A model generated the notes under the pieces. The model saw only the letters and a program-made list of their open reading frames with translations, was not told the DNA's origin and ran no database searches. Made by a program: the position numbers and the translations under genes. From the NCBI RefSeq assembly GCF_036227225.1, contig NZ_CP109444.1:11699501-11763500 (forward strand): 64,000 nt of DNA, given 5' to 3'. The DNA is from Streptomyces sp. NBC_01478 (lineage in GTDB: Bacteria > Actinomycetota > Actinomycetes > Streptomycetales > Streptomycetaceae). Shown piece after piece: positions 1 to 37,766 of the stretch. How positions within the stretch are numbered: position 1 is the stretch's first letter; every line of letters begins with the position of its first letter.

Positions 1-736
1 CGCCCAACAGGCTCTGCGCGACGGTCCAGCCGTTGTCGACGCCGCCCACGACGAGGTCGGCGCGGGTGCGGGCGCCGTTGAAGAAGACCTCGTTGAAGTG
101 GAGTTGGCCGCTCATCATGCGGAACGGCCGGACCTCCACGCCGGGTTGGTCCAGTGGGACAAGGAGGAAGGAGATGCCGCGGTGCTTGGGGGCGGCGCGG
201 TCCGTGCGGGCGAGGACGAAGATCCAGTCGCTGTGGTGGGCGCCGGACGTCCACACCTTCTGGCCGTCGATCACCCACTCGTCGCCCTCGCGTACGGCAC
301 GTGTCGTCAACGAGGCGAGGTCCGAGCCCGCGTCGGGCTCCGAGTAGCCCTGGCACCAGGTGTCCTCGCCGCTGAGTATGCGCGGCAGGAAATGGCTCCG
401 CTGCTCGTCCGTGCCCCACCGCAGCAGCGTGTTCGCGAGCATCTTCACGCCGAAGGTGTCCTGCGGCAGCCCGAACGGCACACCGGCCAGGGCCAGTTCC
501 TCCATCAGGACCACCTGGTGGAGCTTGGACAGGCCACGGCCGCCGTAGCGCTCGGGCCAGGTGAGGGAGAGGTAACGGTGCTCGGCGAGCCGGCGTCGCC
601 AGTCCCGGGCGAAGGACCAGGCGGCCTCCTCGTCGAGGGCGCCGATGCCCTTCCAGTCCGGCGGCAGCGCCTCGGCGAGGAACCCCTTGACCTCGGTGCG
701 GAACGTCTCGGTCTCCGCGGGATAGCTGATGTCCAC
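1..736 (-). CDS. Acyl-CoA dehydrogenase (C-terminus beyond window)
   Basis: Only the N-terminal 245 codons lie in the window; the gene runs off the left edge. The translation from the GTG at 736 has the N-terminal helical domain, then a motif reading WCQGYSEPDAGSDLAS (about residues 130-145) that contacts FAD and substrate, then the beta-sheet segment with VWTSGAHHSDW. This is the layout of the ACAD family, which oxidises acyl-CoA to 2-enoyl-CoA using FAD. A GGAG sits 9 bases before the GTG. It is divergent from the SDR/thiolase operon across a 123-bp gap, so it probably gives the first beta-oxidation step for that operon's substrate. Substrate length cannot be read from the sequence. Confidence 0.9.
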   Translation of the reverse strand, partial: MDISYPAETETFRTEVKGFLAEALPPDWKGIGALDEEAAWSFARDWRRRLAEHRYLSLTWPERYGGRGLSKLHQVVLMEELALAGVPFGLPQDTFGVKMLANTLLRWGTDEQRSHFLPRILSGEDTWCQGYSEPDAGSDLASLTTRAVREGDEWVIDGQKVWTSGAHHSDWIFVLARTDRAAPKHRGISFLLVPLDQPGVEVRPFRMMSGQLHFNEVFFNGARTRADLVVGGVDNGWTVAQSLLG

Positions 737-859: not shown

Positions 860-1606
860 ATGGGACTGCTGGACGGCCGCAACGCGGTGATCACCGGCGG
901 CGCACAGGGCATCGGCTTCGAGATCGCCGGCGTGCTCGGCGCCGCGGGCGCGTCCGTCGTCCTCGGCGACATCAACGAGGACGCCGCGGCGGAAGCCGCC
1001 GAACGCCTCGCCAAGAACGGGGTGGCCGCCACCTCGCTGCGCTGCGACGTCACCGACGAGGACGAGGTCGCCGCCCTGGTCGCCCACTGCGCCGACACCT
1101 TCGGCCCCGTGGGCGTCATGGTCAACAACGCCGGGATCACCCGCGACGCGACCCTGCGCAAGATGGCTCTGTCCGACTTCCGCGCGGTCGTCGACGTCCA
1201 TCTGACCGGCGCCTGGAACGGCACCCGGCACGCGGCCGAGGCGATGCGCGCGCACGGAAGCGGCGGCAGCATCGTCAACATTTCGTCCATCGCCGGCAAG
1301 GTCGGCAACTTCGGTCAGACGAACTACAGCGCCGCCAAGGCCGGACTCGTCGGACTGACCAAAGCTTCCGCCAAGGAACTCGCCAAGGCCGGCATCCGCG
1401 TCAACGCCGTACAGCCGGGCCTGATCCGCACCGCCATGACCGAGGCGATGCCGCCGGCCGCCTGGGACGCCAAGCTCGCCGAGATCCCCCTGGGCCGCGC
1501 GGGCGAGCCCGCCGAGGTCGCCCAGGTCGTCCTCTTCCTCGCCTCCGACATGGCGAGCTACGTCACCGGAGCCGTGGTCGAGGTGACCGGCGGCCGGTAC
1601 ATGTGA
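860..1606 (+). CDS. SDR-family oxidoreductase, FabG / 3-hydroxyacyl-CoA dehydrogenase-like
   Basis: A 248-residue classical short-chain dehydrogenase. The Rossmann glycine motif is TGGAQGIG near residue 12, the NNAG motif is near residue 90, and the catalytic Ser143, Tyr156 and Lys160 (YSAAK) are all present. The C-terminus ends in the usual GG-R-Y-M segment. Members interconvert 3-hydroxyacyl and 3-oxoacyl thioesters with NAD(P)H. Here, first in an operon with two thiolases, the oxidative 3-hydroxyacyl-CoA direction is likelier than fatty acid synthesis. The thiolase start lies 22 bases downstream. The ATG at 860 has a weak AAGGG upstream. Confidence 0.9.
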
Positions 1607-1628
1607 CCCCTCATGAAAGGCCTGGCCG

Positions 1629-2879
1629 ATGCCCGCCCTCCTGCGTGACGCGGTGATCTGCGAACCCGTGCGTACCCCCGTCGGTGGCTACGGAGGCGTC
1701 TTCCGTGACGTGCCGGCGACCGAGCTGGCCGCCGCCGTCGTACGCGCCGTACTGGACCGCACCGGTATCCCGCCCGCCGCCGTCGACGACGTGCTGTTGG
1801 GCCAGTGCTACCCCAACGGCGAGGCCCCGGCCATCGGCCGCGTGGCCGCTCTCGACGCCGGTCTGCCGGTGGAGGTGCCGGGACTCCAGATCGACCGCCG
1901 CTGCGGCTCGGGACTCCAGGCGATCATCACGGCGGCGATGCAGGTGCAGACCGGCGCGAGCGACCTCGTGCTGGCCGGGGGAGTGGAGTCCATGAGCCAG
2001 GCGGAGTTCTACACCACCGGCGTCCGCTTCGGCGTGCGCGGCGCGGGCACCACCCTGCACGACCGGCTGGCCCGCGGCCGGGTCACCTCCGGAGGCGTCA
2101 ACCACCCTGTCCCCGGCGGCATGTTGGAGACCGCCGAGAACCTGCGGCGCGAGTACGCGATCCCCCGCGAGGAACAGGACCAACTCGCCCTGCGCTCCCA
2201 CGAGAAGGCGGTCGCCGCCCAGCGCGAGGGCCGTTTCACCGACGAGATCGTGCCGGTCACCGTACGGACCAGGAAGGGCGAGACGGTCGTCGACAGCGAC
2301 GAACATCCGCGCCCCGACTCGACGTTGGAGAAACTCGCGACCCTGCGCCCCGTCCTCGGACGGCAGGACCCCGAGGCGACCGTCACCGCCGGCAACGCCA
2401 GCGGACAGAACGACGGTGCCGCCCTCTGCGTCGTCACCCACCCCGAGCGCGCCGCCGAACTCGGCCTGCGCCCTCTGGCCCGCCTGGTCTCCTGGGCCGT
2501 CGTGGGCGTGCCGCCGGAGACGATGGGGATCGGCCCGATACCCGCGACGGCCAGGGCACTTGACCGCGCGGGACTCAAGCTCGCCGACATCGACCTGATC
2601 GAACTCAACGAGGCGTTCGCCGCCCAGGTGCTCGCCTGCGCCCGTGAATGGGCCCTGACCGAGGCCGACTTCGAGCGGTTCAACGTCAACGGCTCCGGCA
2701 TCTCGCTGGGTCACCCCGTCGGCGCCACCGGCGGCCGCATCCTCGCCACCCTGCTGCGCGAACTCGACCGCCGTCAGGCCCGGTTCGGCCTGGAGACCAT
2801 GTGCCTCGGCGGCGGACAGGGCCTGGCCGCGGTCTTCGAACGGCCCACGCACACCACCGACGCCAATGGAGGACGCTGA
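1629..2879 (+). CDS. Thiolase (acetyl-CoA acyltransferase)
   Basis: A 416-residue thiolase of normal length with the full catalytic set: nucleophile Cys92 in RRCGSGLQAI, His362 in GHPVGATG, and Cys392 in MCLGGGQG. The NEAFA motif lies near residue 326. These enzymes cleave 3-oxoacyl-CoA with CoA, or run the reverse condensation. The company of an acyl-CoA dehydrogenase and a hydroxyacyl dehydrogenase argues for the degradative direction. It follows the SDR by 22 bases and its stop overlaps the next ATG by one base (TGATG), so the genes are translationally coupled. Specificity for long, branched or ring acyl groups is not visible. Confidence 0.93.
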   Translation: MPALLRDAVICEPVRTPVGGYGGVFRDVPATELAAAVVRAVLDRTGIPPAAVDDVLLGQCYPNGEAPAIGRVAALDAGLPVEVPGLQIDRRCGSGLQAIITAAMQVQTGASDLVLAGGVESMSQAEFYTTGVRFGVRGAGTTLHDRLARGRVTSGGVNHPVPGGMLETAENLRREYAIPREEQDQLALRSHEKAVAAQREGRFTDEIVPVTVRTRKGETVVDSDEHPRPDSTLEKLATLRPVLGRQDPEATVTAGNASGQNDGAALCVVTHPERAAELGLRPLARLVSWAVVGVPPETMGIGPIPATARALDRAGLKLADIDLIELNEAFAAQVLACAREWALTEADFERFNVNGSGISLGHPVGATGGRILATLLRELDRRQARFGLETMCLGGGQGLAAVFERPTHTTDANGGR

Positions 2880-4318
2880 TGCCCGGACTGATCGCATACG
2901 GCGCCTACGTGCCGTACCACCGCCTCGCCCGCGCCGACATCGCCGCCACCCTCGGGACGGTCGCGTCCCGGGGAACGCGCGCGGTGGCGGGCTACGACGA
3001 GGACACCACCTCGATGGCCGTCGAGGCGGCCCGGTCGTCCCTGGCCAGGGACGGACTGCGCACCCGCATCGGCCAGTTGTTCCTCGCCACCGCCGCGCCC
3101 GCCTACCTCGACAAGACGAACGCGACCGCCGTCCACGCGGCGCTCGGCCTCGACCCGCACGTCCTCGCCGTCGACATGGCGGGCTCCGTCCGCTCCGGCC
3201 TCGGCGCGCTGGTCACCGCGGCCCGCTCTCCGGTACCGACCCTGACGGTCCTGTCCGACCTGCGCACCGGCCTGCCCGGCGGCGGCGAGGAGAGCGCGGG
3301 CGGCGACGGAGCGGCGGCGTTCGCCTTCGGCGGCCACCGCAACGGCGCCCCCGTGATCGCGGAGCTGCTCGCCCACGACACGGTCAGCGACGAGATCCTC
3401 GACCGCTGGCGGCTGCCCGGCGCCCCCGCCTCCCGCGTCTGGGAAGAGCGCTTCGCGGAGGAGATCTACGTCTCCCTCGCGGACAAGGCGTTGAGCGCCG
3501 CCCTCGACCAGGCGGGCCTGGACCGTGATGCCGTCGACCACCTCATCGTCTCCGGCCTGCACGCGCGCGCGTGCGCGACGGTGCGTCGTACCTCAGGCGT
3601 ACGTTCCGAGGCGGCGACCGCCGACCTCAGCGCGGAGATCGGCAACGCCGGCACCGCCCAGCCCGGTCTGCTCCTCGCCGATGTCCTCGACCGGGCCGAA
3701 CCCGGCCGGATCATCGCGCTCGTCGTGCTCGGCGACGGCGCGGGAGTCCTGCTCCTGCGCACCACCGACGCCCTCCCCGCACACCGCGCCGCCCGCCCGG
3801 TCGCCGCGCAGATCGCCGCGGGCGGTGCCCCCATGCCGTACGCCACCTACCTCTCCTGGCGCGGCCTCCTCGACCGCGAACCACCCCGCCGTCCGGACCC
3901 GGAGCCGCCGTACGCCCCGCCCGCGCACCGCCGCAACAGTTGGAAGTACGGCTTCGTCGCCTCTCGTTGCGAGAAGTGCGGGACCCGGCATCTGCCGCCG
4001 GACCGGGTGTGCGTGACCTGCCGGAGCGTCGACGCCATGACCGACGAGCCGATGGAGCATGTGCCCGGCACGGTCGCCACGTTCACCGTGGACCGGCTGG
4101 CCCACACGCCGAGCCCGCCGATGCTCGTCGTGGTCGTCGACTACGACGGCGGCGGCAGGTTCCGCTGCCAGCTCACCGACGCCACCGAGGCCGACGCCGT
4201 CATCGGCGCCCGGGTCGAGATGACCTTCCGGCGCACGGTCACCGCCGCCGGCGTCCACAACTACTTCTGGAAGGCCCGGCCGGTACGCACCGGCGAGACC
4301 GAGGGGACAGGCGCATGA
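2879..4318 (+). CDS. HMG-CoA-synthase-like domain fused to DUF35 (Zn-ribbon/OB-fold) domain
   Basis: A 479-residue two-domain protein. Residues 1 to about 340 look like an archaeal-type HMG-CoA synthase or KAS-III-like fold. The remainder is a DUF35 module: a zinc ribbon CEKCGTRHLPPDRVCVTC near residue 365, then an OB-fold. DUF35 partners accompany thiolase-fold enzymes, for example Ltp/ChsH2-type aldolases of steroid side-chain degradation and archaeal acetyltransferase/HMGS complexes. The segment where the acylated Cys is expected reads DMAGSVRSG, with Gly at the Cys position, so ordinary HMG-CoA synthase chemistry is doubtful. The ATG overlaps the thiolase stop, and the TGA overlaps the next ATG (ATGA). 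I infer a structural or CoA-binding partner for the adjacent SCP-x-type thiolase. Confidence 0.78.
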   Translation: MPGLIAYGAYVPYHRLARADIAATLGTVASRGTRAVAGYDEDTTSMAVEAARSSLARDGLRTRIGQLFLATAAPAYLDKTNATAVHAALGLDPHVLAVDMAGSVRSGLGALVTAARSPVPTLTVLSDLRTGLPGGGEESAGGDGAAAFAFGGHRNGAPVIAELLAHDTVSDEILDRWRLPGAPASRVWEERFAEEIYVSLADKALSAALDQAGLDRDAVDHLIVSGLHARACATVRRTSGVRSEAATADLSAEIGNAGTAQPGLLLADVLDRAEPGRIIALVVLGDGAGVLLLRTTDALPAHRAARPVAAQIAAGGAPMPYATYLSWRGLLDREPPRRPDPEPPYAPPAHRRNSWKYGFVASRCEKCGTRHLPPDRVCVTCRSVDAMTDEPMEHVPGTVATFTVDRLAHTPSPPMLVVVVDYDGGGRFRCQLTDATEADAVIGARVEMTFRRTVTAAGVHNYFWKARPVRTGETEGTGA

Positions 4319-5523
4319 GCTCGCACGGAATCCGGGACCGGGTCGCGATCGTCGGCATGGGCTGCACGCCCTTCGGCGAACACTGGACCCGCTCGGCGGA
4401 CGACCTGCTGGTCGACGCCGTCGGCGAGGCCGTCACCTCGGCCGGCATCACGCTCGACGACATCGACGCCTTCTGGCTCGGCACCCAGGCGTCCGGAGTC
4501 TCCGGACTGACCCTCAGCCGCCCGCTCCACCTGCCGTACAAGCCGGTCACCCGCCTGGAGAACATGTGCGCCACCGGCTCCGAGGCGCTGCGCAACGCCT
4601 GTTACGCGGTCGCCTCCGGCGCCTACGACGTGGCGATGGCCGTCGGCGTGGAGAAACTCAAGGACTCCGGCATGTCCGGACTCTCGGGTACCTCGATGCC
4701 CGGCGCGGGCGACGACAGCCGCGGCGAGATCACGGCCCCGGCGAACTTCTCCCTCCTCGCCCCCGCCTACGCGGCCAAGTACGGCCTGGCGGAAGAGGAG
4801 TTGAAGGACGTCATCACCCGCATCGCCTGGAAGAACCACGTCAACGGCGCCCGCAACCCCCGCGCCCAGTTCCGCAAGGAGGTGCCGCTGGAGCGCATCC
4901 GGTCGGCGCCGATCGTCGCGGGCATGCTCGGCGTGTTCGACTGCTCGGGGGTCTCCGACGGATCGGCGGCGGCGATCGTCGTACGCGCCGAGGACGCCTA
5001 CAAGTACACGGACAAGCCGATCTTCGTGAAGGCACTGTCCTTCGTCGCAGGACCGGCGGACGGACTCCTCGACCCCGACTACGACTTCACCACCTTCCCC
5101 GAGGTCGTCGTCTCGGCGCAGGAGGCCTACCGGCAGGCGGGCATCACCGACCCGCGCGCCGAACTCGCCCTTGCAGAGGTCCACGACTGCTTCACACCAA
5201 CGGAGTTGGTGCTGATGGAGGACCTGGGCTTCTCTGAGCGCGGACAGGCGTGGAAGGACGTCACCAGCGGCGCCTTCGACCTGGACGGCTCGCTGCCGGT
5301 CAACCCGGACGGCGGCCTGAAGGCCTTCGGCCACCCCATCGGCGCCTCCGGCCTGCGCATGATGTTCGAGGCCTGGCTCCAACTGCGCGGCGAGGCACCG
5401 CCCGAGCGGACGGTCAGCACGTTGGCCGAAGGGCGCTCGCTCGCCCTCACCCACAACCTCGGCGGCGGCCCCGGCGAATGCGTCTCCTTCGTCTCCGTCG
5501 TCGGCAGCGAACTCACCGACTGA
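4315..5523 (+). CDS. SCP-x / lipid-transfer-type thiolase
   Basis: A 402-residue member of the SCP-x/Ltp thiolase branch. It has the N-terminal VAIVGMGCTPFG, Cys85 in ENMCATGSEAL, a VHDCFTPTEL segment and His in AFGHPIGASG. The C-terminal stretch is HNLGGGPGECVSF. Relatives in actinobacterial steroid catabolism (Ltp proteins) cleave branched 3-oxoacyl-CoAs or do retro-aldol cleavage, usually with a DUF35 partner. The gene directly overlaps the DUF35 fusion by ATGA, which supports a complex. It is part of the operon starting at 860 and is followed 16 bases later by another SDR. Thiolase against aldolase activity cannot be decided from sequence. Confidence 0.88.
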   Translation: MSSHGIRDRVAIVGMGCTPFGEHWTRSADDLLVDAVGEAVTSAGITLDDIDAFWLGTQASGVSGLTLSRPLHLPYKPVTRLENMCATGSEALRNACYAVASGAYDVAMAVGVEKLKDSGMSGLSGTSMPGAGDDSRGEITAPANFSLLAPAYAAKYGLAEEELKDVITRIAWKNHVNGARNPRAQFRKEVPLERIRSAPIVAGMLGVFDCSGVSDGSAAAIVVRAEDAYKYTDKPIFVKALSFVAGPADGLLDPDYDFTTFPEVVVSAQEAYRQAGITDPRAELALAEVHDCFTPTELVLMEDLGFSERGQAWKDVTSGAFDLDGSLPVNPDGGLKAFGHPIGASGLRMMFEAWLQLRGEAPPERTVSTLAEGRSLALTHNLGGGPGECVSFVSVVGSELTD

Positions 5524-5539
5524 GAAAGGTGGTTGAGTC

Positions 5540-6334
5540 ATGGGACGACTCGACAACAAGATCGCGATCGTGACCGGGGCCGCGTCCGGCATCGGCGCCG
5601 CCACCGCCCGCCGCCTGGCGGCCGAGGGCGCCCACACGGTCGTAGCGGATCTGAACCTCGACGGCGCCAAGGCGGTCACGGAGGAGATCCGCGCGGCCGG
5701 AGGCTCCGCCACGGCGGTCCCGGTCGACCTCGGCGACATCGACTCCGTACAGGCCATGGTGGCCACGGCAGTCGACACCTACGGCGGCCTCGACGTCCTG
5801 CACAACAACGCGGCGGCCACCCATCTGGCCGCCCGCCAGGACCTCGCCGTCCTGGAGGCCGACCCGGCGGTCTGGGACGACACCATGCGGATCAACCTGC
5901 GCGGCACCATGGTCGCCATCCAGGCCGCCGTCCCGCACATGATCGCCCGCGGCGCCGGCTCGATCATCAACACCTCGTCCGGCGCCGGTCTGGCGGGCGA
6001 CCTGCGTAACCCCGCGTACGGCGCCTCGAAGGCCGCCCTCATCAACCTCACGCAGTACGTCGCGACCCAGTACGGCAAGCAGGGCGTGCGCTGCAACGCC
6101 ATCGCCCCGGGGTTCATCGTCACGCCGGCGAGCGCCGGTTCGGCCCACGGGGCGATACGCGAGAAGATGCTCCGCCATCACCTCACCCCGCGCCTCGGCC
6201 GGCCGGAGGACGTCGCTGCGGCGGTCGTCTTCCTCGCCTCCGACGAGTCCGCCTTCATCACCGGGCACACCCTGCGCGTGGACGGCGGACTGCTGGCCCA
6301 CCAGCCGTACGTGGCGGACCTGCGGGACGCCTGA
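5540..6334 (+). CDS. SDR-family NAD(P)-dependent oxidoreductase
   Basis: A 264-residue classical SDR, the last gene of the 860-6334 operon. It shows TGAASGIGAA (about residues 12-21), the HNNAA variant of NNAG, an NTSSGAG serine segment and the YGASK catalytic Tyr/Lys motif. The C-terminus VDGGLLAHQPY is typical. An AAAGG ribosome site lies about 10 bases before the ATG. It probably oxidises or reduces a hydroxyl group on the pathway intermediate, distinct from the first SDR of the operon. Its stop is only 7 bases from the stop of the convergent transporter gene, leaving no room for a separate terminator. Confidence 0.88.
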   Translation: MGRLDNKIAIVTGAASGIGAATARRLAAEGAHTVVADLNLDGAKAVTEEIRAAGGSATAVPVDLGDIDSVQAMVATAVDTYGGLDVLHNNAAATHLAARQDLAVLEADPAVWDDTMRINLRGTMVAIQAAVPHMIARGAGSIINTSSGAGLAGDLRNPAYGASKAALINLTQYVATQYGKQGVRCNAIAPGFIVTPASAGSAHGAIREKMLRHHLTPRLGRPEDVAAAVVFLASDESAFITGHTLRVDGGLLAHQPYVADLRDA

Positions 6335-6341
6335 CCCACCG

Positions 6342-9038
6342 TCAGGACGACGTCTCCGGCTCCAGGTCGCCCAGGTAGGCCGCCCGGACCGCCGGATCGC
6401 GGCGCACCTCGTCCGGGGTGCCGGCGCAGATCCGGCGTCCGAAGTCGAGCACGACGACCTGGTCGCAGACGCTCATCACCATGTCGACGTCGTGCTCGAC
6501 GAGCAGCACCCCCATGCCCCAGTCCTCGGCGAGCCGCCGCACGAGATGGGCCAACTCCTGTGTCTCGTCGTCGGACAGCCCCGCCGCCGGTTCGTCCAGC
6601 AGCAGCACCGACGGCGAGGTCGCCACCGCCCGCGCGATCGCCAGCAACCGCCGCTCACCGTACGACAGGTCTCCCACCGGCCGGTCCAGGCTGTCCTGGA
6701 GCCCGAACTCCCTTACGGCGACGAGTACTTGGGCGGGCAGCGGGCGGCTGCCGGGACGGACCAGGTCGGTGAGCCAGGTCCACCGGCCCGGTCGCTCGCA
6801 GGCGGCGTAGAGGTTGTCCAGCACCGTCATGTCCTCGAACAGCTCCAGCGACTGGAAGGACCGGCTAAGCCCGGCCCCGGCCCGCCGGTGCACCGGCACC
6901 CGGGTCACGTCCCGCTGGCCGAGGCGGACGCTGCCGGACGCGGCCCGGGTGAAGCCGGTGACCGCGTCGATGGCGGAGGTCTTGCCGGCGCCGTTGGGGC
7001 CGATGAGCCCCACCACCCGGCCCGGTTCGACGTCCAGCGAGAGTTCGTCGACGGCAACGACACCGCCGTAGCGGACGGTGAGGTCGCGCACGTGCAGGGG
7101 GAGGGGTGCGGCGCGGGGGACGTCCGGCAGGGGAGCCGTCTCCTCCTCGGGTACGACGGCAGCGCGCTGTGGGCGCAGCTTTCGCTCAAGTCCCCTCGCC
7201 TGCTTGCCGAGTTCCTTGCCGATGCCGTCCTGGTTGCCCACCAGGGTCAGCACCAGGATGATCCCGCCGATCAGCGGCATCCACTCGCTCAGCCCGGGCA
7301 GCACCAGGTCTCCGAACCGGGCGCCGACCGTGCCCGCGGCGAACGTGGCGCCGAACAGCGGGCCGACGAGGAAGCCGACACCGCCGATGACGGCGAGCCC
7401 GAGCGCGGTGACGGAGTCGAAGCTCGCGAAGTCGGAGAACACCACCGACGTCGACCGGAAGCCGGTCAGTACGCCGGCGAGCGCGGCGATGGCCGAGGAC
7501 AGACCGAAGGCGTAGAGCTTGGCCGCGCGGACGTCGATGCCCAGGGCGGCGGCGGCCCGCTCGTTGGCCCGTACGGCGACGAGACGGCGGCCGGTGCGAC
7601 TGCGCCGGACGTTGGCGACCACGAGCGTGGCGGCGACGAACAGGACCAGCACCACGGCGGCGTAGCGCTGCGGATGGTCGACGCCGGAGATGCTGATGCC
7701 GAAGAGCGTCTGGTTGCCGACCGCGATGCCGTCGCTGCCGGGCGTCGTCGACAGGTCGGTGTTCTGGAAGACCATCGCCTCCAGGGTGGTGCCGAGCCCG
7801 AGCGTGATGATCGCGAGATTGACCCCGCGCGTGCGCACGGCCGGCAGCGCGAACAGCAGGCCGATCGGTATGGTCCCCAACACGCCTGCCAACAGGGCGA
7901 GTTCGAAGGGCCAGCCCCAGTCCGCCGCCGCGTGCCCGGCGATGAAGGCGCCGGTCCCGGCAAGGGCGTAGGCCGCCAGCGAGACCTGGCCCGCGTAACC
8001 GGTGACCACGATGATCGACAGGATGATCAGCGAGAGCACCAGCGTGCTGGTGATCGCGTCGGCCCACAACGGCGTCGACAGGCTCACCAGCACCAGCCCG
8101 GTCACCACGGCCAGCGCGAGCGGGACGGGGCGCACCCTGCCGGTGCCCAGCGCCGGGAGGCGGTCGAGGAACGTGCCGCGCAGCGGCAGTGCCCGGCCGC
8201 GCGCGACCAGTACCAGGGCGATGAAGAGGAACGGCACCGACGAGGCGAGTCCGGTGACGCCCGAGCCGAAGCGCGTGAGTTCGGACTGCGCGACCCCGAT
8301 GACCAGACCGCCCGCCAAAGTGATCGGGAACGACGAGAACCTGCCGACCAGGGCGGCGGCCAGCGCGCTCAGCAGCAGCGTGGTCAGCCCGGTCACCGAC
8401 AGGCCGATCACTGGCACGATCAGGATGGCGGTGAGCCCCGCGAGCGCGGAGCCCAGCGCCCAGTTGCCGGCGGCGATCAGATCGGGGGACCAGCCGAGCG
8501 CGGCGGCGGCGCCCTCGTTCTCGGCGACCGCGGTGGTGCCCAGGCCGAACAGGGTGCGCCGGTACAGGAGATGGAGCACGGCCGTCACGGCGAGCGCGAT
8601 GCCGAGCAGCCAGACGTGGTCCTCGGAGACCGTCGCCCCGGCGATCGTCAGCAGCCGGGTGGGCAGCTTGCCCGGCACCAACTGCAGGCTGTCGCCGTAG
8701 CGTTTGACGGCGATCGCGGTGAGCACGATGAACACCGCGAGGGTGCCGACCAGTCGGGCCAGGGTGGACGCCCTGCGCAGCGGGCGGATCACCAACAGGT
8801 GGGTGAGCACGCCCAGTACGGCGGAGATGAGCACGCCGCACGCGGTGGCGGGCCAGTACGGCACGCCGTGGTTGACGGCGAGTTCCCACTGGACGTAGGC
8901 ACCGGCCATCCCGATCGCGCCGTGCGCGAAGTTCAGGACTCCGGAGCCCCGGTAGACCAGCACGATGCCGTGTGCGGTGAGTGCGTAGAGGGCGCCGAGC
9001 CCCAGGCCGAGCAGCGCGAAGCGCAGGACGTCGTCCAT
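6342..9038 (-). CDS. Fused branched-chain/carboxylate ABC importer LivH-LivM-LivG
   Basis: An 898-residue natural fusion of three normally separate subunits. Residues 1 to about 300 are a LivH-type permease, about 310-640 a LivM-type permease, and about 655-898 a LivG ATPase. The ATPase has Walker A GPNGAGKTSA, signature LSYGERRLLAIARAVA and Walker B LLLDEPAAGL. Many hydrophobic helices are visible in the first two parts. HAAT-family importers take up amino acids, aromatic acids and other carboxylates. The ATG at 9038 has GAGG nine bases upstream. The second ATPase (LivF) and the binding protein are on the divergent strand, so expression of two transcripts must be matched. Confidence 0.92.
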   Translation of the reverse strand: MDDVLRFALLGLGLGALYALTAHGIVLVYRGSGVLNFAHGAIGMAGAYVQWELAVNHGVPYWPATACGVLISAVLGVLTHLLVIRPLRRASTLARLVGTLAVFIVLTAIAVKRYGDSLQLVPGKLPTRLLTIAGATVSEDHVWLLGIALAVTAVLHLLYRRTLFGLGTTAVAENEGAAAALGWSPDLIAAGNWALGSALAGLTAILIVPVIGLSVTGLTTLLLSALAAALVGRFSSFPITLAGGLVIGVAQSELTRFGSGVTGLASSVPFLFIALVLVARGRALPLRGTFLDRLPALGTGRVRPVPLALAVVTGLVLVSLSTPLWADAITSTLVLSLIILSIIVVTGYAGQVSLAAYALAGTGAFIAGHAAADWGWPFELALLAGVLGTIPIGLLFALPAVRTRGVNLAIITLGLGTTLEAMVFQNTDLSTTPGSDGIAVGNQTLFGISISGVDHPQRYAAVVLVLFVAATLVVANVRRSRTGRRLVAVRANERAAAALGIDVRAAKLYAFGLSSAIAALAGVLTGFRSTSVVFSDFASFDSVTALGLAVIGGVGFLVGPLFGATFAAGTVGARFGDLVLPGLSEWMPLIGGIILVLTLVGNQDGIGKELGKQARGLERKLRPQRAAVVPEEETAPLPDVPRAAPLPLHVRDLTVRYGGVVAVDELSLDVEPGRVVGLIGPNGAGKTSAIDAVTGFTRAASGSVRLGQRDVTRVPVHRRAGAGLSRSFQSLELFEDMTVLDNLYAACERPGRWTWLTDLVRPGSRPLPAQVLVAVREFGLQDSLDRPVGDLSYGERRLLAIARAVATSPSVLLLDEPAAGLSDDETQELAHLVRRLAEDWGMGVLLVEHDVDMVMSVCDQVVVLDFGRRICAGTPDEVRRDPAVRAAYLGDLEPETSS

Positions 9039-9182
9039 CCGAGGAACCTCCCAGACACGGGACGAGACAGTGCATTCATTTAAATAATTGTGCCGAGAGT
9101 ACTTCACTAACCCAAAAATGCGCCCCATGCTGTTCGGCATCTCGACGTCGCCCACTTTGGGCGCGAGCCCCGCGGAGGGACC
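9039..9182. promoter_or_regulatory. Divergent promoter region with AT-rich palindrome
   Basis: This 144-bp gap separates the divergent importer fusion and binding-protein genes. It contains an AT-rich patch unlike the surrounding DNA, with the perfect 8-bp palindrome ATTTAAAT at 9078-9085. The patch is the likely promoter or operator core. It does not match the dyads at 800-826, so I see no proof of a shared regulator. Confidence 0.35.
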
Positions 9183-10418
9183 ATGAACGACTCACGTCGA
9201 CGCAGAAGCGTCGCGACCGGCTGTCTCGCGATGACCGGAGCCCTGCTCGTGGCAGGGTGCGGGGGAGAGGCGGCAAGCAGTTCGGCCGAGACCTCGTCGC
9301 TGAAGGGCACCCCGGTCAAGGTGATGGTCTGGGCGCCGGAGAACACCCAGGGCAGCGCCCAGCCCGGGATCCACCTCACCGCCACGGCCTACGAGAAGTG
9401 GATCAACGCCAACGGCGGGATCAAGGGCGGACCCCTGAAGGTCGAGTTCTGCAACGAGAAGGGCGACCCCGACGAGGCCGAGAAGTGCGCCCAGCAGGCC
9501 GTCGCCGACAAGGTCGCCGCGGTCGTCGGCTCCTACAGCCTCGCGGGCGACCGCTACATGCCTATCCTCCAGAAGGCCGGCATCCCGTACATCGGCGGCA
9601 CCGGCGTCTCCGCCGCTGAGTTCTCCAACCCGCTGTCCTTCCCGGTCAACGGCGGTACCCCGGTGGTGTTCGCCGCCCACGGCCGCCAACTGGTCGAGCA
9701 GGGCTGCAAGAAGATCACCGGCGTACGGTACGACGTGGCCGCCGCGGCCGTGGTCTCGCAGTTCCTCACCCTGGGTGCGACCTCCGCCGGAGGGGCACCG
9801 CCCAAGGACCTCAAGGTGCCGCTCACCGCCACCGACCTCGCCCCGCAGGTCGCCGCGACCAAGGGCAGCGACTGCGTGAGCGTCATCATGGGCACCGCCT
9901 CCGGCCTGTTCGTGAAGTCGTACGTCCAGTCCGGCGACAAGACCAAGCTCGCCAGCGTGGTCGGCAACCTCACCCCGCAACTGGCCGCGAGCACGGGCGG
10001 AAGCAGCAGCCCGCTGGAGGGCGCCGCGATAACCGGCTACTACCCGCCGACCTCCGACGCCGTCTGGAAGGACTTCGTGACGGCGGCCAAGGGCAAGGAC
10101 ATCGACACCACCAACGGCGCCAACGCCACGACCTGGGTGGCTTTCAAGGTCTTCACCGAGGCCGCCAAGAAGCTGCCGACCATCTCTGCCGAGGCGCTGG
10201 TGAAGGAGCTGAACACCACCTCCGGCATCGACACCGGAGGCCTGACCCCGCCCCTGAACTGGAAGGCGTCGACGGCCCTGCCGATCAAGGGGCTCGACCG
10301 CATCCACAACACGACCGCCACCGAACTCACCATCCGCGACGGGAAGATCGAGTGGGCCAAGGCCGGGTCGACCTTCGTCGACGTCCGCAAGGTGCTGACG
10401 GCCGCGTCGCACGGCTGA
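9183..10418 (+). CDS. Substrate-binding lipoprotein of the Liv-type importer
   Basis: A 411-residue periplasmic-binding-protein-like protein of the leucine/amide type. It begins with a basic n-region (NDSRRRRS), a hydrophobic stretch and lipobox LVAGC, so the mature protein is lipid-anchored at about Cys26 on the outer face of the membrane. Two-lobe receptor segments follow, such as GGIKGGPLKVEFCNEKGDP and AAVVGSYS. It should capture the ligand for the fused permease encoded divergently. The ligand is not readable. With acyl-CoA enzymes around it, a carboxylic acid is likelier than an amino acid. Confidence 0.88.
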   Translation: MNDSRRRRSVATGCLAMTGALLVAGCGGEAASSSAETSSLKGTPVKVMVWAPENTQGSAQPGIHLTATAYEKWINANGGIKGGPLKVEFCNEKGDPDEAEKCAQQAVADKVAAVVGSYSLAGDRYMPILQKAGIPYIGGTGVSAAEFSNPLSFPVNGGTPVVFAAHGRQLVEQGCKKITGVRYDVAAAAVVSQFLTLGATSAGGAPPKDLKVPLTATDLAPQVAATKGSDCVSVIMGTASGLFVKSYVQSGDKTKLASVVGNLTPQLAASTGGSSSPLEGAAITGYYPPTSDAVWKDFVTAAKGKDIDTTNGANATTWVAFKVFTEAAKKLPTISAEALVKELNTTSGIDTGGLTPPLNWKASTALPIKGLDRIHNTTATELTIRDGKIEWAKAGSTFVDVRKVLTAASHG

Positions 10419-10450
10419 GCCCGCTTCGGTACGGCTGAGTCCGCTTCGGT
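10411..10450 (+). repeat. Tandem 20-bp direct repeat
   Basis: Two adjacent 20-bp units (10411-10430 and 10431-10450) differ at one base. The first spans the stop codon of the binding-protein gene, so each unit carries an ACGGCTGAG start. It looks like a recent slip duplication in the gap before livF. No function is evident. Confidence 0.85.
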
Positions 10451-10498
10451 ACGGCCGACGCTGCCGCCCCCGGCCGACTCCGGTTGAGGAGAGACCTC

Positions 10499-11203
10499 GT
10501 GCACGACACCGATGTGCCCCTGATAGCGACCCGCGCCCTGTCCGCCGGATACGGCAGCCGACCCGTCGTCAGCGACCTCGACCTGGAGGTCCGGCCGGGC
10601 GAGGTCGTCGCCCTGCTCGGCCCCAACGGCGCGGGCAAGACCACCACCCTCAGGGCGCTGTCCGGCGACCTGACCCCGATGAGCGGCGAGGTGCGCTGGC
10701 TGGGCACCCCCGGTCACGCACCCCTGCACCGCCGCGCCCGCGAAGGCCTCGCCTACGTCGGCGAACGCGCGGTCTTCACCCGCCTCGACACCACCGACAA
10801 CCTCCGGGTCGGGCGCGTTCCGCCCGACCGGGCCGTCGCGCTCTTCCCCGAACTGGAGAAACGCCTCAGGACCGGCGCGGGCATGCTGTCCGGCGGCGAG
10901 CAGCAGATGCTGTCGCTGGCGCGCGCCCTGTGCCGTACCCCCCGGCTCCTCCTGGCCGACGAACTCTCCCTGGGACTCGCCCCGTTGGTCGTCGACCGTC
11001 TCCTGCGCGCCGTACGCGAGGCGGCCGACCAGGGCCTGGGCGCACTGCTGGTCGAACAGCACGTACGCAAGGTGCTCGACATCGCCGACCGCGTCTACGT
11101 CCTGCGCCGCGGCCGGGTCGTCATGACCGGCACCCCGAAGGAACTGCGCGGAGACCTCGACGCCATCGAGTCCTCCTATCTCGCGAACAACCCGACGTCA
11201 TGA
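10499..11203 (+). CDS. LivF-type ABC transporter ATP-binding protein
   Basis: A 234-residue ATPase, the second nucleotide-binding subunit of the importer. It shows Walker A LLGPNGAGKTTTL near residue 40, signature LSGGEQQMLSLARAL and Walker B LLADELSLGLAP. The length matches LivF. The GTG at 10499 is preferred over the TTG at 10484 because GAGGAG at 10486-10491 gives a correct spacing and overlaps the TTG. It should pair with the ATPase domain of the triple fusion. The LuxE-like gene follows after 18 bases, putting transport and acid activation on one transcript. Confidence 0.9.
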   Translation: MHDTDVPLIATRALSAGYGSRPVVSDLDLEVRPGEVVALLGPNGAGKTTTLRALSGDLTPMSGEVRWLGTPGHAPLHRRAREGLAYVGERAVFTRLDTTDNLRVGRVPPDRAVALFPELEKRLRTGAGMLSGGEQQMLSLARALCRTPRLLLADELSLGLAPLVVDRLLRAVREAADQGLGALLVEQHVRKVLDIADRVYVLRRGRVVMTGTPKELRGDLDAIESSYLANNPTS

Positions 11204-11221
11204 CTGATGGAGGTGGTTGCC

Positions 11222-12565
11222 GTGCCCAGCGCACGTGAGCAGCTCCGGGCCCTCGTCCGGTCCGGTGACACATTCGACCAACCCGCCCGGGACCTAAGGG
11301 AGTTGCAGCTCGAAGCGGCGCGCGAGGCCTTCACCGCGCACCGCGAGCGCATCCCGCTGCTGCGCACCCGGGCGACGGAGAGCGGCGTCCACGGGATCGA
11401 GAGCCCCGACGACCTCGTCCCCCTGCTGTTCTCCCACACCAGCTACAAGTCGTACCCTCTCTCCTTCATCACGGGCGGCCGGTGGGACCGGCTCCTGCGC
11501 TGGTACACGACGGTGTCGGTGGTCGAGCCGGGCGATGTCGACGTCGAGGGCGTGACCGACATCGACGAGTGGACGGACCGCGTGACGGCCGCCGGTCACC
11601 GCCCGTACATCACCAGCGGTACATCGGGGAAGGTCTCCTTCCTCAACTGCGACGCGGGCGACCTGCGTTTTCTGCACGACATCCTGGAGAACCTCACCTG
11701 CTGGCCCGACCCGCTGCCGCCCGAACCGACCCGCCGCGGTTACCTCCTCGCACCGGCGGGCGGCCCGATGCGCTCCATCGACGGCTACCGCTGGCACGCG
11801 GACGTCTTCGCACGGCCCGGCGAGACACGGTTGCTCACCGAAGACCCCATGCGGGTCTCGGAGTTGATGAGCAGCGCCCTGCTGCGCCGCCGCATGGCCG
11901 AGGGCACCGCCACCCCGCAGGAGATCAGCTCCTTCGAGGCCGCGTCCGGGGCCCGCGAGGAGGAACTCGGCGCGGCCGTCGCCCAGATCGTCGACGACAT
12001 CGCCGCACACCGGACCGAGCCACTCCTGATCGCCGGGATGAACAACCAGCAGTTCACCCTGATCCAGGCTCTGCGGGCCCAGGGTGTACCTGACGGGAGC
12101 CTCCACCCGGACACGCTGGTGCTCAGCGGCGGCGGCAACAAGAACGGGGTCCTGCCCGACGACTACCAGCAGCAGTTCGCCGCCTTCTACGACGGCGTAC
12201 GGCGGGTGCGCAGTTACGGCATGACGGAGCTTCAGGGCTCCTGCCTGGCCTGCGAGTCGGGCAACTACCACGTGCCGCCGTGGGTGATCCCGCTGGTCCT
12301 GGACGAGCCGGGCGAGAAGCTGCTCAACACCGAACAGGGCGTGGTGGAGGGCCGGTTCGCCTTCCTGGACGTATCACTGGAGGGCCGCTGGGGCGGGCTG
12401 ATCAGCGGAGACCGGGTCCTCGTCGACTTCTCGCCCTGCGACTGCGGCCGTGCGGGACCGGCGGTCCTGCCGGACATCCGGCGCTACGGCGACCTGGGCG
12501 GCGAGGACAAGATCACCTGCGCCGCGACACTCGACTCCTATGTGCGGGGGATGATCCACGGATGA
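11222..12565 (+). CDS. LuxE-like acyl-protein synthetase
   Basis: A 447-residue member of the LuxE / acyl-protein synthetase branch of adenylating enzymes. The nucleotide-binding motif reads YITSGTSGKVSFL and a second core segment reads YGMTELQGSC. LuxE activates a carboxylic acid as acyl-AMP and transfers it to its own Cys near the C-terminus. Here EDKITCAATLDSY, 15 residues from the end, keeps that Cys (about residue 433). The GTG at 11222 has GGAGG eight bases before it; the ATG at 11207 overlaps that site. The stop overlaps the LuxC-like start by ATGA. The pair would form an acid-to-aldehyde reductase, although a ligase role in catabolism is also possible. Confidence 0.82.
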   Translation: MPSAREQLRALVRSGDTFDQPARDLRELQLEAAREAFTAHRERIPLLRTRATESGVHGIESPDDLVPLLFSHTSYKSYPLSFITGGRWDRLLRWYTTVSVVEPGDVDVEGVTDIDEWTDRVTAAGHRPYITSGTSGKVSFLNCDAGDLRFLHDILENLTCWPDPLPPEPTRRGYLLAPAGGPMRSIDGYRWHADVFARPGETRLLTEDPMRVSELMSSALLRRRMAEGTATPQEISSFEAASGAREEELGAAVAQIVDDIAAHRTEPLLIAGMNNQQFTLIQALRAQGVPDGSLHPDTLVLSGGGNKNGVLPDDYQQQFAAFYDGVRRVRSYGMTELQGSCLACESGNYHVPPWVIPLVLDEPGEKLLNTEQGVVEGRFAFLDVSLEGRWGGLISGDRVLVDFSPCDCGRAGPAVLPDIRRYGDLGGEDKITCAATLDSYVRGMIHG

Positions 12566-13941
12566 GCACCACGACCGAAACCGAGGTCGTGCACGTGGTG
12601 CGCGGCGAGGTCGACCACGGCTCACCCGTCGCGTACGGCCGCGCCGACTCGGCCTTCACCGCACCGGCACTCGACCTGGACCGCCTCGTGTGGCCGCGCA
12701 CCGAACCCGGCCCCGCCTTCCACGTGCCCGTCGCGGAGATCGTCGACCTCCTGGTGGAGACCGGCGAGGCCCTCAAGGCGGACCGCGAGGGCCTGCTCGC
12801 CGAGGCCCTCGACCGCATGGTCAGGGTCAGCCCGCTGCCTGCGGAGGTCCTCGAGCGCGCCTACGCCGTCCTGTGGCGCAGCTTCCAACGGCCCGGCCTG
12901 TACGCCCAGATCGACCACGAACTCGGCGGAGCGGACGTGCTCGACGGCTGGCGCGAGGTACGCCTGCCCGACAACCGGACCGCGGCCACCCGCGCGTTCC
13001 CACCGCGCCTGGTGCACATCATCGCCGGCAACGCCCCCGGCGTGGCCGCGATGTCCGTCGTGCGCGGCGCCCTCACGAAGGGCGTCAACCTGCTGAAACT
13101 GCCCTCGAACGACCTGTTCACCGCGACCGCGATCCTGCGCACGATGGCGGCGGTGGCCCCCGGCCACCCCGTGGTCCGCTCGTTCTCCGCGGTGTACTGG
13201 CGCGGCGGCGACGAGACGGTGGAGAGCGTGCTGTTCCGCCCGCAGTTCTTCGACAAACTGGTCGCCTGGGGCGGCGAGGCCACGATTCGCGGCGCACTGC
13301 GGTACGTCGGCCCGGGCTTCGAACTCGTCTCCTTCGACCCCAAGACCTCCATCTCGCTCATCGGCCGCGAGGCGTTCGAGTCCCCCGAGACCCTTGCCCG
13401 AGCCGCCGACGCGGGCGCCGCCGACGCCACCTTCTTCAACCAACAGGCCTGCGTGGCCAGCCGCTTCCAGTTCGTCGAGGGCTCCTGGGAGGACGCCGAC
13501 CGCTACGCCGCCCTGCTGTGCGAACGCCTGGGCGTGGCAAGGGAGTTCAGCTCGGCCGACGGCCCGCGGGTCGCCGCGGAACTCCGCGAGGAGATCGACG
13601 TCCTGCGCTCCCTGACACCCGACTACCGGGTGTGGGGCGGCTACGACGGCCGGGGCCTGGTCATCCGCTCGCCCGAACCGGTCGACTTCCACCCCGACGG
13701 AAAGATGGTCAACGTCATCCCGGTTGCCGAGCTGTCCGAAACCGTCGCCTACGCAGGAGTCGCCACGCAGACCGTGGGCGTGTACCCCGGCATCCGCAAA
13801 ACGGAGCTGCGCGATGCCCTCGCATGCGCCGGGGTTCAGCGGGTGGTGTCCCTCGGCGGTGCGGGAGGCATGCCGCCAGGTCTTTCCCACGACGGCTTCT
13901 ACCCGCTGCAGCGGCTCATGCGCTGGGTGAACGACGAGTGA
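12562..13941 (+). CDS. LuxC-like acyl-CoA reductase
   Basis: A 459-residue LuxC-family protein with an aldehyde-dehydrogenase-like fold. The conserved HIIAGNAPGVAAMSVVRG and LTKGVNLLKLPSNDLFTA segments are present. The catalytic Cys297 lies in FFNQQACVAS. LuxC reduces an activated acyl group to an aldehyde with NADPH through an acyl-Cys intermediate. It overlaps the LuxE-like gene by four bases and closes the operon starting at 9183. No luxA, luxB or luxD is present in the window, so light production is not suggested. A terminator-like hairpin follows 28 bases after the stop. Confidence 0.87.
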   Translation: MSTTTETEVVHVVRGEVDHGSPVAYGRADSAFTAPALDLDRLVWPRTEPGPAFHVPVAEIVDLLVETGEALKADREGLLAEALDRMVRVSPLPAEVLERAYAVLWRSFQRPGLYAQIDHELGGADVLDGWREVRLPDNRTAATRAFPPRLVHIIAGNAPGVAAMSVVRGALTKGVNLLKLPSNDLFTATAILRTMAAVAPGHPVVRSFSAVYWRGGDETVESVLFRPQFFDKLVAWGGEATIRGALRYVGPGFELVSFDPKTSISLIGREAFESPETLARAADAGAADATFFNQQACVASRFQFVEGSWEDADRYAALLCERLGVAREFSSADGPRVAAELREEIDVLRSLTPDYRVWGGYDGRGLVIRSPEPVDFHPDGKMVNVIPVAELSETVAYAGVATQTVGVYPGIRKTELRDALACAGVQRVVSLGGAGGMPPGLSHDGFYPLQRLMRWVNDE

Positions 13942-22235: not shown

Positions 22236-23258
22236 ATGAACGAGACCACGCTCACCGTGCACCAGACCTCCCGCCCTCACGGCTTCCCCGACGCCGGGCA
22301 CTTCGCCTTTGTCGAGTCCGCGCTTCCCGAACCCGCGGTCGGCAGCGCGCTCGTGGAAAACCTCTACTGGTCCGTCGATCCCTATCACCGCGAGATGATG
22401 GACGATGTCCCCGGCAGCTTCGCGCTCGGCGCACCGTTGGAGGGGCGCGCCATCGGGCGGGTCATCGCCTCGCGCACGTCTCGGCTGGCCGAGGGCGACA
22501 TCGTGTTCCACCGGCGGGGCTGGCGCACGCACGCAGTGGTCACCCCCGAGGAGATCCGGCATCTGCCCCGTTTCGACGGCGTGCCTCTGACCGCATACCT
22601 CAGCATCCTCGGCGGAACAGGTCTGACCGCGTATGTGGGCCTGACCAGGATCGCCCGCCTTCAAGAGGGCGAGGACCTGTTCGTGTCGGCCGCCGCGGGC
22701 GGGGTCGGCACCGCGACCGGGCGGTTCGCGCGGCTGCTCGGCGCCGGACGGCTCGTGGGCAGTGTCGGTTCGGCGGCGAAGGCCGACCATCTCACGCGGG
22801 AGGTCGGCTACGACGCCGTCTTCGACTACCACGAGGAGCCGGTCGCCGATCTGCTCCGCAAGGCCGCGCCGGACGGCATCGACGTGTTCGTCGACAACGT
22901 CGGCGGCCAACAACTGGCGGCGGCGGTAGGGGAGTTGCGTGAATTCGGGCGCATCGTCCGCATCGGCACGATCAGCCAGTACAACAACCCCGACGCGTCG
23001 CCGCCACGCTTCAACTACGCGGACATCGTGGAGAAGAGCATCCGCATGGAGGGCTTCTTGGTGAGCAACTACCGTGACGTACAAGATGAGTTGTACGAGT
23101 TCGCGGTACCGCATCTGCAGAGCGGCCGTCTCGCTCTGGACGAGACGGTCGTCGACGGGTTCGAGCACATCGTGGACGCGTTCCTGGGGATGTTGCGCGG
23201 CCGGAACACCGGCAAGATCATCGTGCGAGACCGTACGCAGGTCCCGTCCGTGAACTGA
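22236..23258 (+). CDS. NADP-dependent MDR oxidoreductase (prostaglandin reductase / leukotriene dehydrogenase type)
   Basis: A 340-residue zinc-free medium-chain reductase of the PTGR/CurA branch. It shows YWSVDPYHREMM near residue 46, the nucleotide motif VSAAAGGVGTATGRFARLLGA near 150, and DVFVDNVGG near 225. Another marker is GRIVRIGTISQYNN. These enzymes reduce the 2,3-double bond of enones and enals with NADPH. The ATG at 22236 matches the family's N-terminus; in-frame upstream codons belong to the LysR promoter. It is divergent from the LysR gene, which likely controls it. Confidence 0.88.
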   Translation: MNETTLTVHQTSRPHGFPDAGHFAFVESALPEPAVGSALVENLYWSVDPYHREMMDDVPGSFALGAPLEGRAIGRVIASRTSRLAEGDIVFHRRGWRTHAVVTPEEIRHLPRFDGVPLTAYLSILGGTGLTAYVGLTRIARLQEGEDLFVSAAAGGVGTATGRFARLLGAGRLVGSVGSAAKADHLTREVGYDAVFDYHEEPVADLLRKAAPDGIDVFVDNVGGQQLAAAVGELREFGRIVRIGTISQYNNPDASPPRFNYADIVEKSIRMEGFLVSNYRDVQDELYEFAVPHLQSGRLALDETVVDGFEHIVDAFLGMLRGRNTGKIIVRDRTQVPSVN

Positions 23259-24907: not shown

Positions 24908-25264
24908 ATGCGCATCGGGCAGCTCGCGAGGCGGTCAGGGGTCAGCGTGCGGGCCCTGCGCTACTACGAGGAACAGCGGCTCCTGGAATCGGCGCGGACG
25001 CCCGGTGGGCAGCGTGACTATCCCGACGAAGCCCTGGAGCGGGTCCAGCTCATCCAGGACCTCTTCGCGGCCGGCCTCTCCAGCCGTACCGTCGTCGAAC
25101 TCCTGCCGTGCGTGAGCACCGGCGTCGCGACCCCCGCCATGCTCGACCAGCTCATCATCGAACGCGACCGCATCGCCGCACGCATCCAGGACCTGACCCG
25201 GGCCAAGACCAAACTCGGCAGCGTGATCGAGAATGTGACCGCGGCGAACGTGGCGCAGGACTGA
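24908..25264 (+). CDS. MerR-family transcriptional regulator
   Basis: A 118-residue MerR protein. The winged helix-turn-helix begins MRIGQLARRSGVSVRALRYY and ends at PDEALERVQLIQ. A dimerising coiled coil (IIERDRIAARIQDLTRAKTK, about residues 80-100) follows, with a very short tail. There is no cysteine-rich metal-binding loop, so it is not a metal sensor of the MerR/ZntR kind. Starting at the ATG at 24908 (AGGGAG 11 bases upstream) gives the standard N-terminus. The dyad shared with the oxidoreductase gene implies a small redox or electrophile regulon. Confidence 0.9.
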   Translation: MRIGQLARRSGVSVRALRYYEEQRLLESARTPGGQRDYPDEALERVQLIQDLFAAGLSSRTVVELLPCVSTGVATPAMLDQLIIERDRIAARIQDLTRAKTKLGSVIENVTAANVAQD

Positions 25265-25416
25265 TCAACCCGTCGCGAGGGGTGGGGCCCCGACCTGTCC
25301 GGCATCTTCCGGGCGACGTCGCGCGTGAACAGGTCTCCCCACCCGGTCGGGTCCATGAGCGCCACCGTCACCCTTCCCCTGCGCCCGTCATGGACGATCA
25401 ACGTCTCCTCGGACCG

Positions 25417-25908
25417 TCAGTTGCTGAGTGCCAGCCTGATGCCGAAGACGCCGATGACGGTGCCGGTGATCCGGTCGAGCAGTCGGCGAGCCCGGGGCTT
25501 GCGGAGCCACCCCTTCAGGACACGAGCAAAACCGATGAGGACGGCAGACCAGGGCAGACCGATCACGATGTGCACCGTGGTGAGCAGGAGTCCCATGGTG
25601 AAGTGGCCGGCGCCTGGGGGGATGAACTGGGGCAGGACAGCGACGTAGAAGGCGCCCATCTTCGGGTTCAGGAGGTTGGTGAGCGTCCCCTGCCGCCAGC
25701 CGCCGGTGACCGAGTCTGCTCCGGCGGTCAGAGGCGAATCGTCCGCGTCTGCCGTGGGCAGACCCCGGAAGGTGTCCCGGAGCATGCGGAACCCCATCCA
25801 GATCAGGTAAGCGGCGCCGATCCAGCGCAACTCGGTGTGAGCGAGATGCGAGGCCGTGAGGAGCGCGGTCACTCCGAGGGAGGTGAACGCACCCACCACT
25901 GGCCCCAA
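25417..25908 (-). pseudogene. LysE-family exporter, N-terminally truncated
   Basis: The 163-residue frame matches the middle and end of LysE/RhtB amino-acid exporters, with LRWIGAAYLIWMGFRMLRD, LTNLLNPKMGAFYVAVLPQF and an AVLIGFARVLKGWLRKP tail. Normal members have about 205-210 residues. The first helix and its PGP motif (about 40 residues) are missing; similarity starts abruptly near VVGAFTSLGVTALL. The DNA immediately upstream is an IS5-type transposase remnant, so an insertion followed by decay removed the 5' end. A functional exporter is unlikely. Confidence 0.75.
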
Positions 25909-26228
25909 AACTGACCTGCAAAGCCAACCAAGTGATCACTGACGGGCACGGCACTCCGCTCGCGGGCTTGGTCCCCGTGGGCAACCGTACTGACATCACG
26001 CAGTCGTTGCCCCTGCCCGACACGATCCCGCCGGTCCGCGGCCGGGTCGGGCGTCCCACCGCGGACCCGGCTCACGTTTCGCCGAACATCGCTACGACCA
26101 CGACGTCTACCGTGAACAGGTTCGAGCATCCGCCGGGAACGGCGAGCCGACGTCCACGAAGCGTTCGTCAAACCCACCTGCCTGCTCATCGCCCACCGCC
26201 AACTCATGTCGTGGTGTTGGCCGTTGTA
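25909..26228 (+). mobile_element. Decayed IS5-type transposase remnant
   Basis: The plus strand reads as the middle of an IS5-family DDE transposase: ITDGHGTPLAGLVPVGNRTD, then PPVRGRVGRPTADP. After a frame change it reads RYDHDVYREQVRAS, and after another HEAFVKPTCLLIAHRQL up to a TAA at 26226-26228. These correspond in order to the region between the second and third acidic residues of such enzymes. At least two frameshifts and a lost N-terminus make it inactive. It abuts the truncated LysE gene. Confidence 0.7.
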
Positions 26229-37763: not shown

Positions 37764-37766
37764 CTG

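Follow-up and report, generated by a model that had tools for sequence, protein, structure and literature searches.

LuxE and LuxC are known mainly from bioluminescence. Carboxylic acid reductases (CARs), large single-protein enzymes that include a carrier domain, convert an acid to an aldehyde with ATP and NADPH, and a carboxylate is also reduced by the pair of EhpG and EhpF, the latter without a C-terminal domain. A non-luminous luxE and luxC are annotated in one flagellin glycosylation island of Aeromonas in a passage of PMC7874193, and part of a review gives the catalytic cysteine of LuxE as Cys362 (PMC12655506). In this study, we analyzed a 64,000-nucleotide stretch of Streptomyces sp. 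NBC_01478 (positions 11699501–11763500; hereafter the window), whose 12.1-Mb genome is a single contig. The window lies ~0.4 Mb short of the right end and holds an overlapping gene pair of the LuxE/LuxC type. The pair probably encodes a non-luminous, two-protein carboxylic acid reductase dependent on ATP and NAD(P)H, as predicted from sequence and structural modeling. This reading, which had been put forward by an earlier inspection of the same DNA (the original prediction), is supported by homology, the model fold, the missing C-terminal domain of CoA ligases, conserved cysteines and co-inheritance. No report placing such a pair in Streptomyces or in any catabolic cluster was recognized in searches of an open-access library, and within that scope this agrees with the earlier view that the system is undescribed.

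Features of the LuxE-like and LuxC proteins

The first gene (11222–12565, + strand) encodes a LuxE-like adenylating acyl-protein synthetase of 447 aa with the predicted acyl carrier Cys433 (codon 12518–12520), and the second (12562–13941, + strand) encodes a LuxC-family acyl-protein/acyl-CoA reductase of 459 aa with catalytic Cys297 (codon 13450–13452). The two open reading frames (ORFs) overlap by four bases, and both cysteines lie where the original prediction had placed them. LuxC scored 166.7 bits against PF05893 (cut-off 21; 1e-48) and matched the Photobacterium LuxC structure PDB 7xc6 at 2.5e-33; its Cys297 aligned with the QQAC cysteine of 7xc6 and was retained in all 188 aligned LuxC homologues. 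Cys433 was retained in 197 of 198 aligned LuxE-like homologues at a position outside the ANL core, where the C-terminal cysteine of PF04443 proteins aligns with it, pointing to a role as the acyl carrier. These counts were taken from alignments of 82/84 locus and 116/120 database sequences for LuxE (length 400–480) and of 71/77 locus and 117/120 database sequences for LuxC (length 420–500), in which the locus and database sets overlap, so that the counts are not independent. The cysteine conservation, the PF05893 and 7xc6 scores and the block conservation described below are more than chance.

Among 7997 candidates scored, 719 LuxE-like relatives were obtained at E ≤ 0.001, and the homologue lists comprised the best 120 of these and the best 120 of 2698 LuxC relatives. 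No Pfam domain was found on the best 120 LuxE-like relatives; most of the named ones are called "hypothetical protein", and a few are labelled "acyl-protein synthetase LuxE domain-containing" by UniRef. PF04443 matched 1 of 20 LuxE-like relatives (E = 0.0044).

The predicted model of the LuxE-like protein consists of an ANL core without the C-terminal domain of CoA ligases. In the fold comparison, it aligned only to residue ~428 of 447 and the C-terminal domain of about 100 residues was not found, and PaaK1 (2y27_A, 425 residues) aligned over 7..337; the list of folds does not exclude families absent from it. A plain PaaK CoA ligase was rejected as an identity for this protein on account of the missing domain. 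The tail 425–447, which holds Cys433, has a predicted local distance difference test score (pLDDT) below 50 and could, judging from the model, act as a swinging arm. C344, H350, C406 and C408, each retained in 193/198, form a zinc-like site resembling the Cys/His set in the AjiA1 and ClxA alignments, and are for this reason more likely structural.

Pairing and distribution of the two genes

The loci compared were the best 79 of 213 relatives from a genome scan, ranked by similarity to the window, and the window itself made 80; because of this ranking, Streptomyces is over-represented. The 79 comprise 23 Streptomyces and one Actinomadura, followed by Nocardia, Mycolicibacterium, Nocardioides, sphingomonads, Caulobacterales, Burkholderiales, Pseudomonas, Hydrocarboniphaga and others. 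LuxC was found downstream of LuxE on the same strand within 1.5 kb in 71/80 loci, and the four-base overlap recurs in 43 of 67 adjacent gene-call pairs. A LuxC match was missing in six loci, and in three LuxC lies more than 3 kb off or not on that strand. The LuxE and LuxC trees, compared over the 66/80 loci with intact adjacent pairs, have their main clades in common, and the pairwise identities are correlated (r = 0.93).

Among 60 other sampled genomes of the genus, a protein from the pair was present in one. Streptomyces LuxC is 56–68% identical to 13 mostly beta/gamma-proteobacterial sequences and 66% to Nocardioides, compared with 46–51% to 19 sequences of Nocardia, mycobacteria and their kin and 44–61% to those of sphingomonads/Caulobacterales. 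LuxC is thus nearer to beta/gamma-proteobacteria and Nocardioides than to Nocardia and mycobacteria, and horizontal transfer is therefore likely on sequence grounds.

Variants of the arrangement were also seen. The 2.7-Mb genome G076 carries two LuxE relatives, L090 and L091, and LuxC precedes LuxE in the latter. In L028, a transposase-associated-like ORF (by sequence reading) lies between LuxE and LuxC, and an additional 155-aa ORF lies between LivF and LuxE.

A conserved gene block in Streptomyces

A gene was scored as present in the Streptomyces loci if a single piece covering half its length matched at 70% identity. By this measure, the nine genes from 1629 to 13941, with the pair at their right end, are all present in 19 of the 23, at 82–100% protein identity. 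As for the other four, L026 starts at a contig end, L042 has the pair alone, L031 has seven of the nine genes and the remaining two on L099 (another stretch of the same genome), and in L029 the gene calls are fragmented, yet the DNA aligns throughout the block. DNA similarity among the Streptomyces loci ends within ~20 bases of the LuxC stop codon, and the three genes downstream in the window were found in none of the 23.

On the left, the acyl-CoA dehydrogenase gene is the last one before the similarity to eight relatives is lost, at window positions −475 to −488 in seven of them and at −636 in L095; in this genome the similarity starts again near −13532. The intervening segment of ~13 kb (−13532 to −475; L092) carries a transposase-like gene, by sequence reading. 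The two parts are separated by 20–112 bases in L093, L094, L095, L096 and L100, by 2.6 kb in L098 and by 8–9 kb in L097 and L099. The left edge is therefore a variable spot and not the end of the cluster. The adjoining genes of L094 encode a CoA transferase, two enoyl-CoA hydratases (one named from sequence only), MaoC, a related dehydratase-region protein and a thioesterase, along with a CoA ligase with its C-terminal domain, a beta-lactamase-like protein (by sequence reading), an amidohydrolase, a GntR regulator and a DUF2889 protein. According to gene calls, the part from the ligase end to DUF2889, at least, is also retained in this genome beyond the 13-kb segment.

The block opens with an acyl-CoA dehydrogenase gene (1..736, − strand; Pfam of the orthologue L094:10886-12112), which runs ~490 bases past the left window edge. 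On the + strand follow a FabG-like short-chain dehydrogenase (SDR) gene (860–1606; NCBIfam NF004198 over cut-off) and a thiolase gene of the acetyl-CoA C-acetyltransferase subfamily (1629–2879; PF00108/PF02803, NF004853 over cut-off). The + strand gene 2879–4318, taken for retro-aldolase-like in the original prediction, turned out by profile and structure comparison to encode an HMG-CoA synthase (HMGCS)/PhlA-like domain fused to DUF35 (zinc ribbon and OB fold). Valine occupies the position of the archaeal HMGCS cysteine, which we take to be catalytic, and PhlA has glycine there. The next gene (4315–5523, +) encodes an SCPx/archaeal-type thiolase with the Cys, HDCF and GHPxGxxG stretches (NF004810 over cut-off), of which the product of 2879–4318 is perhaps the structural partner in a PhlACB-like or archaeal-type complex. 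A second SDR gene (5540–6334, +; PF13561) scored over the cut-off of the subfamily NF005559 and reached no equivalog cut-off among the best 25 of 232 NCBIfam families listed. Matches to alicyclic-acid enzymes (pimeloyl-CoA dehydrogenase and hydroxycyclohexanecarboxylate dehydrogenases) stayed under the NCBIfam cut-offs.

The importer genes comprise a fused branched-chain-type permease (LivHM) and ATPase (LivG) gene on the − strand (6342–9038; Pfam on ORF 6342–9155, start from codon scoring), a divergent + strand gene for a Peripla_BP_6 substrate-binding protein with a lipobox-like LVAGC near its N-terminus (9183–10418, alternative start 9249), and a LivF-type ATPase gene (10499–11203, +, alternative start 10484; Pfam/NCBIfam). 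The closest solved sequences to the binding protein, 3lop and 4ey3 (E ~1e-5), do not fix its ligand. The single transcript of pair and importer envisaged earlier fits the binding protein and LivF, which are co-directional with the pair, but not the permease-LivG gene, and the dehydrogenase/thiolase operon described as opposite the pair in fact lies on the same + strand (860–6334). As stated in the original prediction, luciferase is absent: PF00296, the family expected of a lux operon, had no match in the window, and the nearest of its 58 matches genome-wide is ~47 kb from the LuxE-like gene. With no match in the window, luciferase was rejected as the reason for the pair.

Elsewhere in the window, positions 25000–45000 hold few convincing genes by codon scoring, with a G+C content of 0.65–0.70, under that of most of the remainder. 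A tRNA-Gln (ctg) at 23099–23179 lies inside the codon-scored ORF 22236–23258, the call of which may be wrong.

Neighborhoods outside Streptomyces

Neighbor families at the 56 non-Streptomyces loci were counted with seeds that we chose, on our own gene calls, and far neighborhoods do not serve as a matched control for near ones. In the interval from −5 to +6 genes around the pair, SDR genes were found in 44/56 loci, TetR in 24, MFS in 20, TauD in 10, HIBADH-type genes in 9 (all mycobacterial), aldehyde dehydrogenase (ALDH) genes in 8 and AKR genes in 7. Complete Liv sets occurred in three of the 56 stretches (L035, L058 and L060), within this distance only in L035, and thiolases in 10/56 loci; the classical and SCPx thiolase profiles used in the counting overlap, with 52 matches common to both. 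Given this rarity, importer and thiolases fall outside the general module; the importer was rejected as a general companion of the pair, and the importer/thiolase setting is essentially a Streptomyces feature. The single system of importer, reductase and beta-oxidation envisaged in the original prediction therefore stands for Streptomyces, where the genes travel as one block, but not elsewhere, where the pair usually lacks both, an outcome that the original prediction had itself named as counting against it. A DUF35 gene and a thiolase gene grouping with that of the window are again found close to the pair in Azonexus (L040), and DUF35 and thiolase-family genes are likewise present in Hydrogenophilaceae L049 and Aquabacterium L067, which hints at a recurring CoA-based degradative setting.

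Partner genes differ among loci and include SDR, TetR, MFS, TauD, sulfotransferase, DUF1214, amidohydrolase and DUF2889 genes. Sulfotransferase, DUF1214 and TauD-type genes were seen in 7, 7 and 10 of the 56 loci, and within −5 to +6 genes in 4, 4 and 10; these loci, including L034, L047, L053 and L058, belong to both Actinobacteria and Proteobacteria. At Mycolicibacterium loci such as L063, the pair and a TetR-type gene are divergently oriented, and a HIBADH-type gene comes after the latter; several of these loci add CMD and ALDH genes, and their flanks look like conserved chromosomal genes. In three loci (L033, L060 and L064), the stretch from −5 to +6 genes around the pair includes luciferase-family (LLM-like) genes, which may be chance in view of the abundance of this family.

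Proposed function and alternatives

In the mechanism that we propose, in which substrate, direction, cofactor and acyl transfer between the proteins are all predicted, the LuxE-like protein would adenylate a free carboxylic acid with ATP and load the acyl group onto Cys433 on the flexible C-terminal tail. The acyl group would then pass to Cys297 of LuxC and be reduced with NAD(P)H to the aldehyde, which neighboring SDRs, or AKRs in some other species, could process onward. In Streptomyces, the pair forms part of a catabolic block that also holds the genes of a Liv-type importer, an acyl-CoA dehydrogenase and SDRs as well as three thiolase-fold genes. That the L094 cluster has its own CoA ligase suggests a task for the pair beyond that of a ligase. 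With a CoA transferase encoded there as well, the earlier idea that the enzyme cysteine feeds the acid to beta-oxidation found no support. We speculate that the carboxyl group sits where beta-oxidation is blocked, hence the reduction. More broadly, this widespread LuxE/LuxC branch might serve Actinobacteria and Proteobacteria as a catabolic carboxyl-to-aldehyde "reset", on protein cysteines, for acids that beta-oxidation cannot enter, to which Streptomyces adds a dedicated importer; we offer this as a tentative idea that is possible but doubtful.

Several observations weigh against acid reduction by the pair. The LuxE-like protein had no Pfam or NCBIfam match and did not reach the PF04443 cut-off, and the PF04443 proteins L101 and L103 were missing from the matches of profile A2 at E ≤ 10 (search space set to 10,000), so that homology to LuxE is argued from L102/L117, the fold and the C-terminal alignment. 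LuxC scored 153.5 bits against NF052251, the NCBIfam LuxC equivalog of luminous bacteria, far under its cut-off of 750. At least two of the six loci without a LuxC match (L051 and L059) are full-length stretches, L090 has no LuxC match in 18 kb, and the correlation of r = 0.93 is partly shared ancestry. Moreover, acid reduction is unexpected in a degradative cluster, SDR proximity is weak evidence because SDRs are common genes, and ALDH genes lie near the pair, five of the eight loci being Mycolicibacterium.

In one alternative, the LuxE-like protein would be a CoA ligase of the PaaK kind, with LuxC acting as a CoA-acylating aldehyde dehydrogenase, so that the acid would become acyl-CoA with CoA, not Cys433, as the carrier. 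The best folds are indeed CoA ligases (HCL 6he0 and PaaK), and the Cys/His set is common to AjiA1 and ClxA; nevertheless, the model lacks the C-terminal domain completing such ligases, Cys433 is near-invariant while lying outside the ANL core, and a ligase with that domain is already encoded in the wider L094 cluster, and we consider this assignment unlikely. The degradative neighbors (dehydrogenases, acyl-CoA dehydrogenase and thiolases), together with the ALDH and HIBADH-type genes elsewhere, would also suit an oxidative direction, in which LuxC turns a pathway aldehyde into an acyl-enzyme and LuxE releases or re-forms the acid. From established enzymology, however, aldehyde oxidation needs no adenylating partner, and ordinary ALDHs are present at those loci, which leaves this direction quite unlikely. 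A biosynthetic role, in which the pair would provide an aldehyde or an alcohol as a building block and the thiolase and HMGCS-DUF35 genes would work as a PhlACB-like acyltransferase, draws on the resemblance of 2879–4318 to PhlA plus PhlB and of 4315–5523 to PhlC, and on the adjoining AMP-binding ehpF and ALDH-family ehpG described in part of PMC11278526 for a phenazine operon. The block nevertheless encodes an importer, not an exporter, and a CoA ligase, CoA transferase, hydratases and acyl-CoA dehydrogenase are near in L094, so this role appears very unlikely, and a two-protein acid reductase remains our preferred reading.

Comparison with known systems

If the relatives are acid reductases as well, they would represent acid-reduction chemistry outside CAR enzymes, useful for biocatalysis, and would help explain orphan degradation clusters. 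The block in Streptomyces is both conserved and compact, and it is open to experimental testing. The pair is like LuxC-LuxE of luminous bacteria (Photobacterium, 7xc6) in the adenylating LuxE fold, the C-terminal cysteine, the QQAC cysteine and the adjacent genes, but differs in its remote sequences, its catabolic setting, the PF04443 non-match and a window without a luciferase-family gene. EhpF/EhpG of D-alanylgriseoluteic acid formation differ in serving phenazine biosynthesis, as described in parts of PMC11278526 and PMC3175449, and the Aeromonas luxE/luxC are placed, in the relevant passage of PMC7874193, among the fatty-acid synthesis genes of a glycan island, unlike the catabolic setting of the window. 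For the accompanying thiolase-fold genes, the archaeal thiolase-DUF35-HMGCS complex (6esq) and PhlACB (5m3k) are the closest solved relatives of 2879–4318; 6esq is also closest to 4315–5523, with PhlC further down its match list. In contrast to both complexes, the HMGCS-like and DUF35 parts are fused in the window, with valine at the archaeal cysteine position. Finally, the overall reaction predicted for the pair is the same as that of CARs, from which it differs in being divided between two proteins with cysteine carriers.
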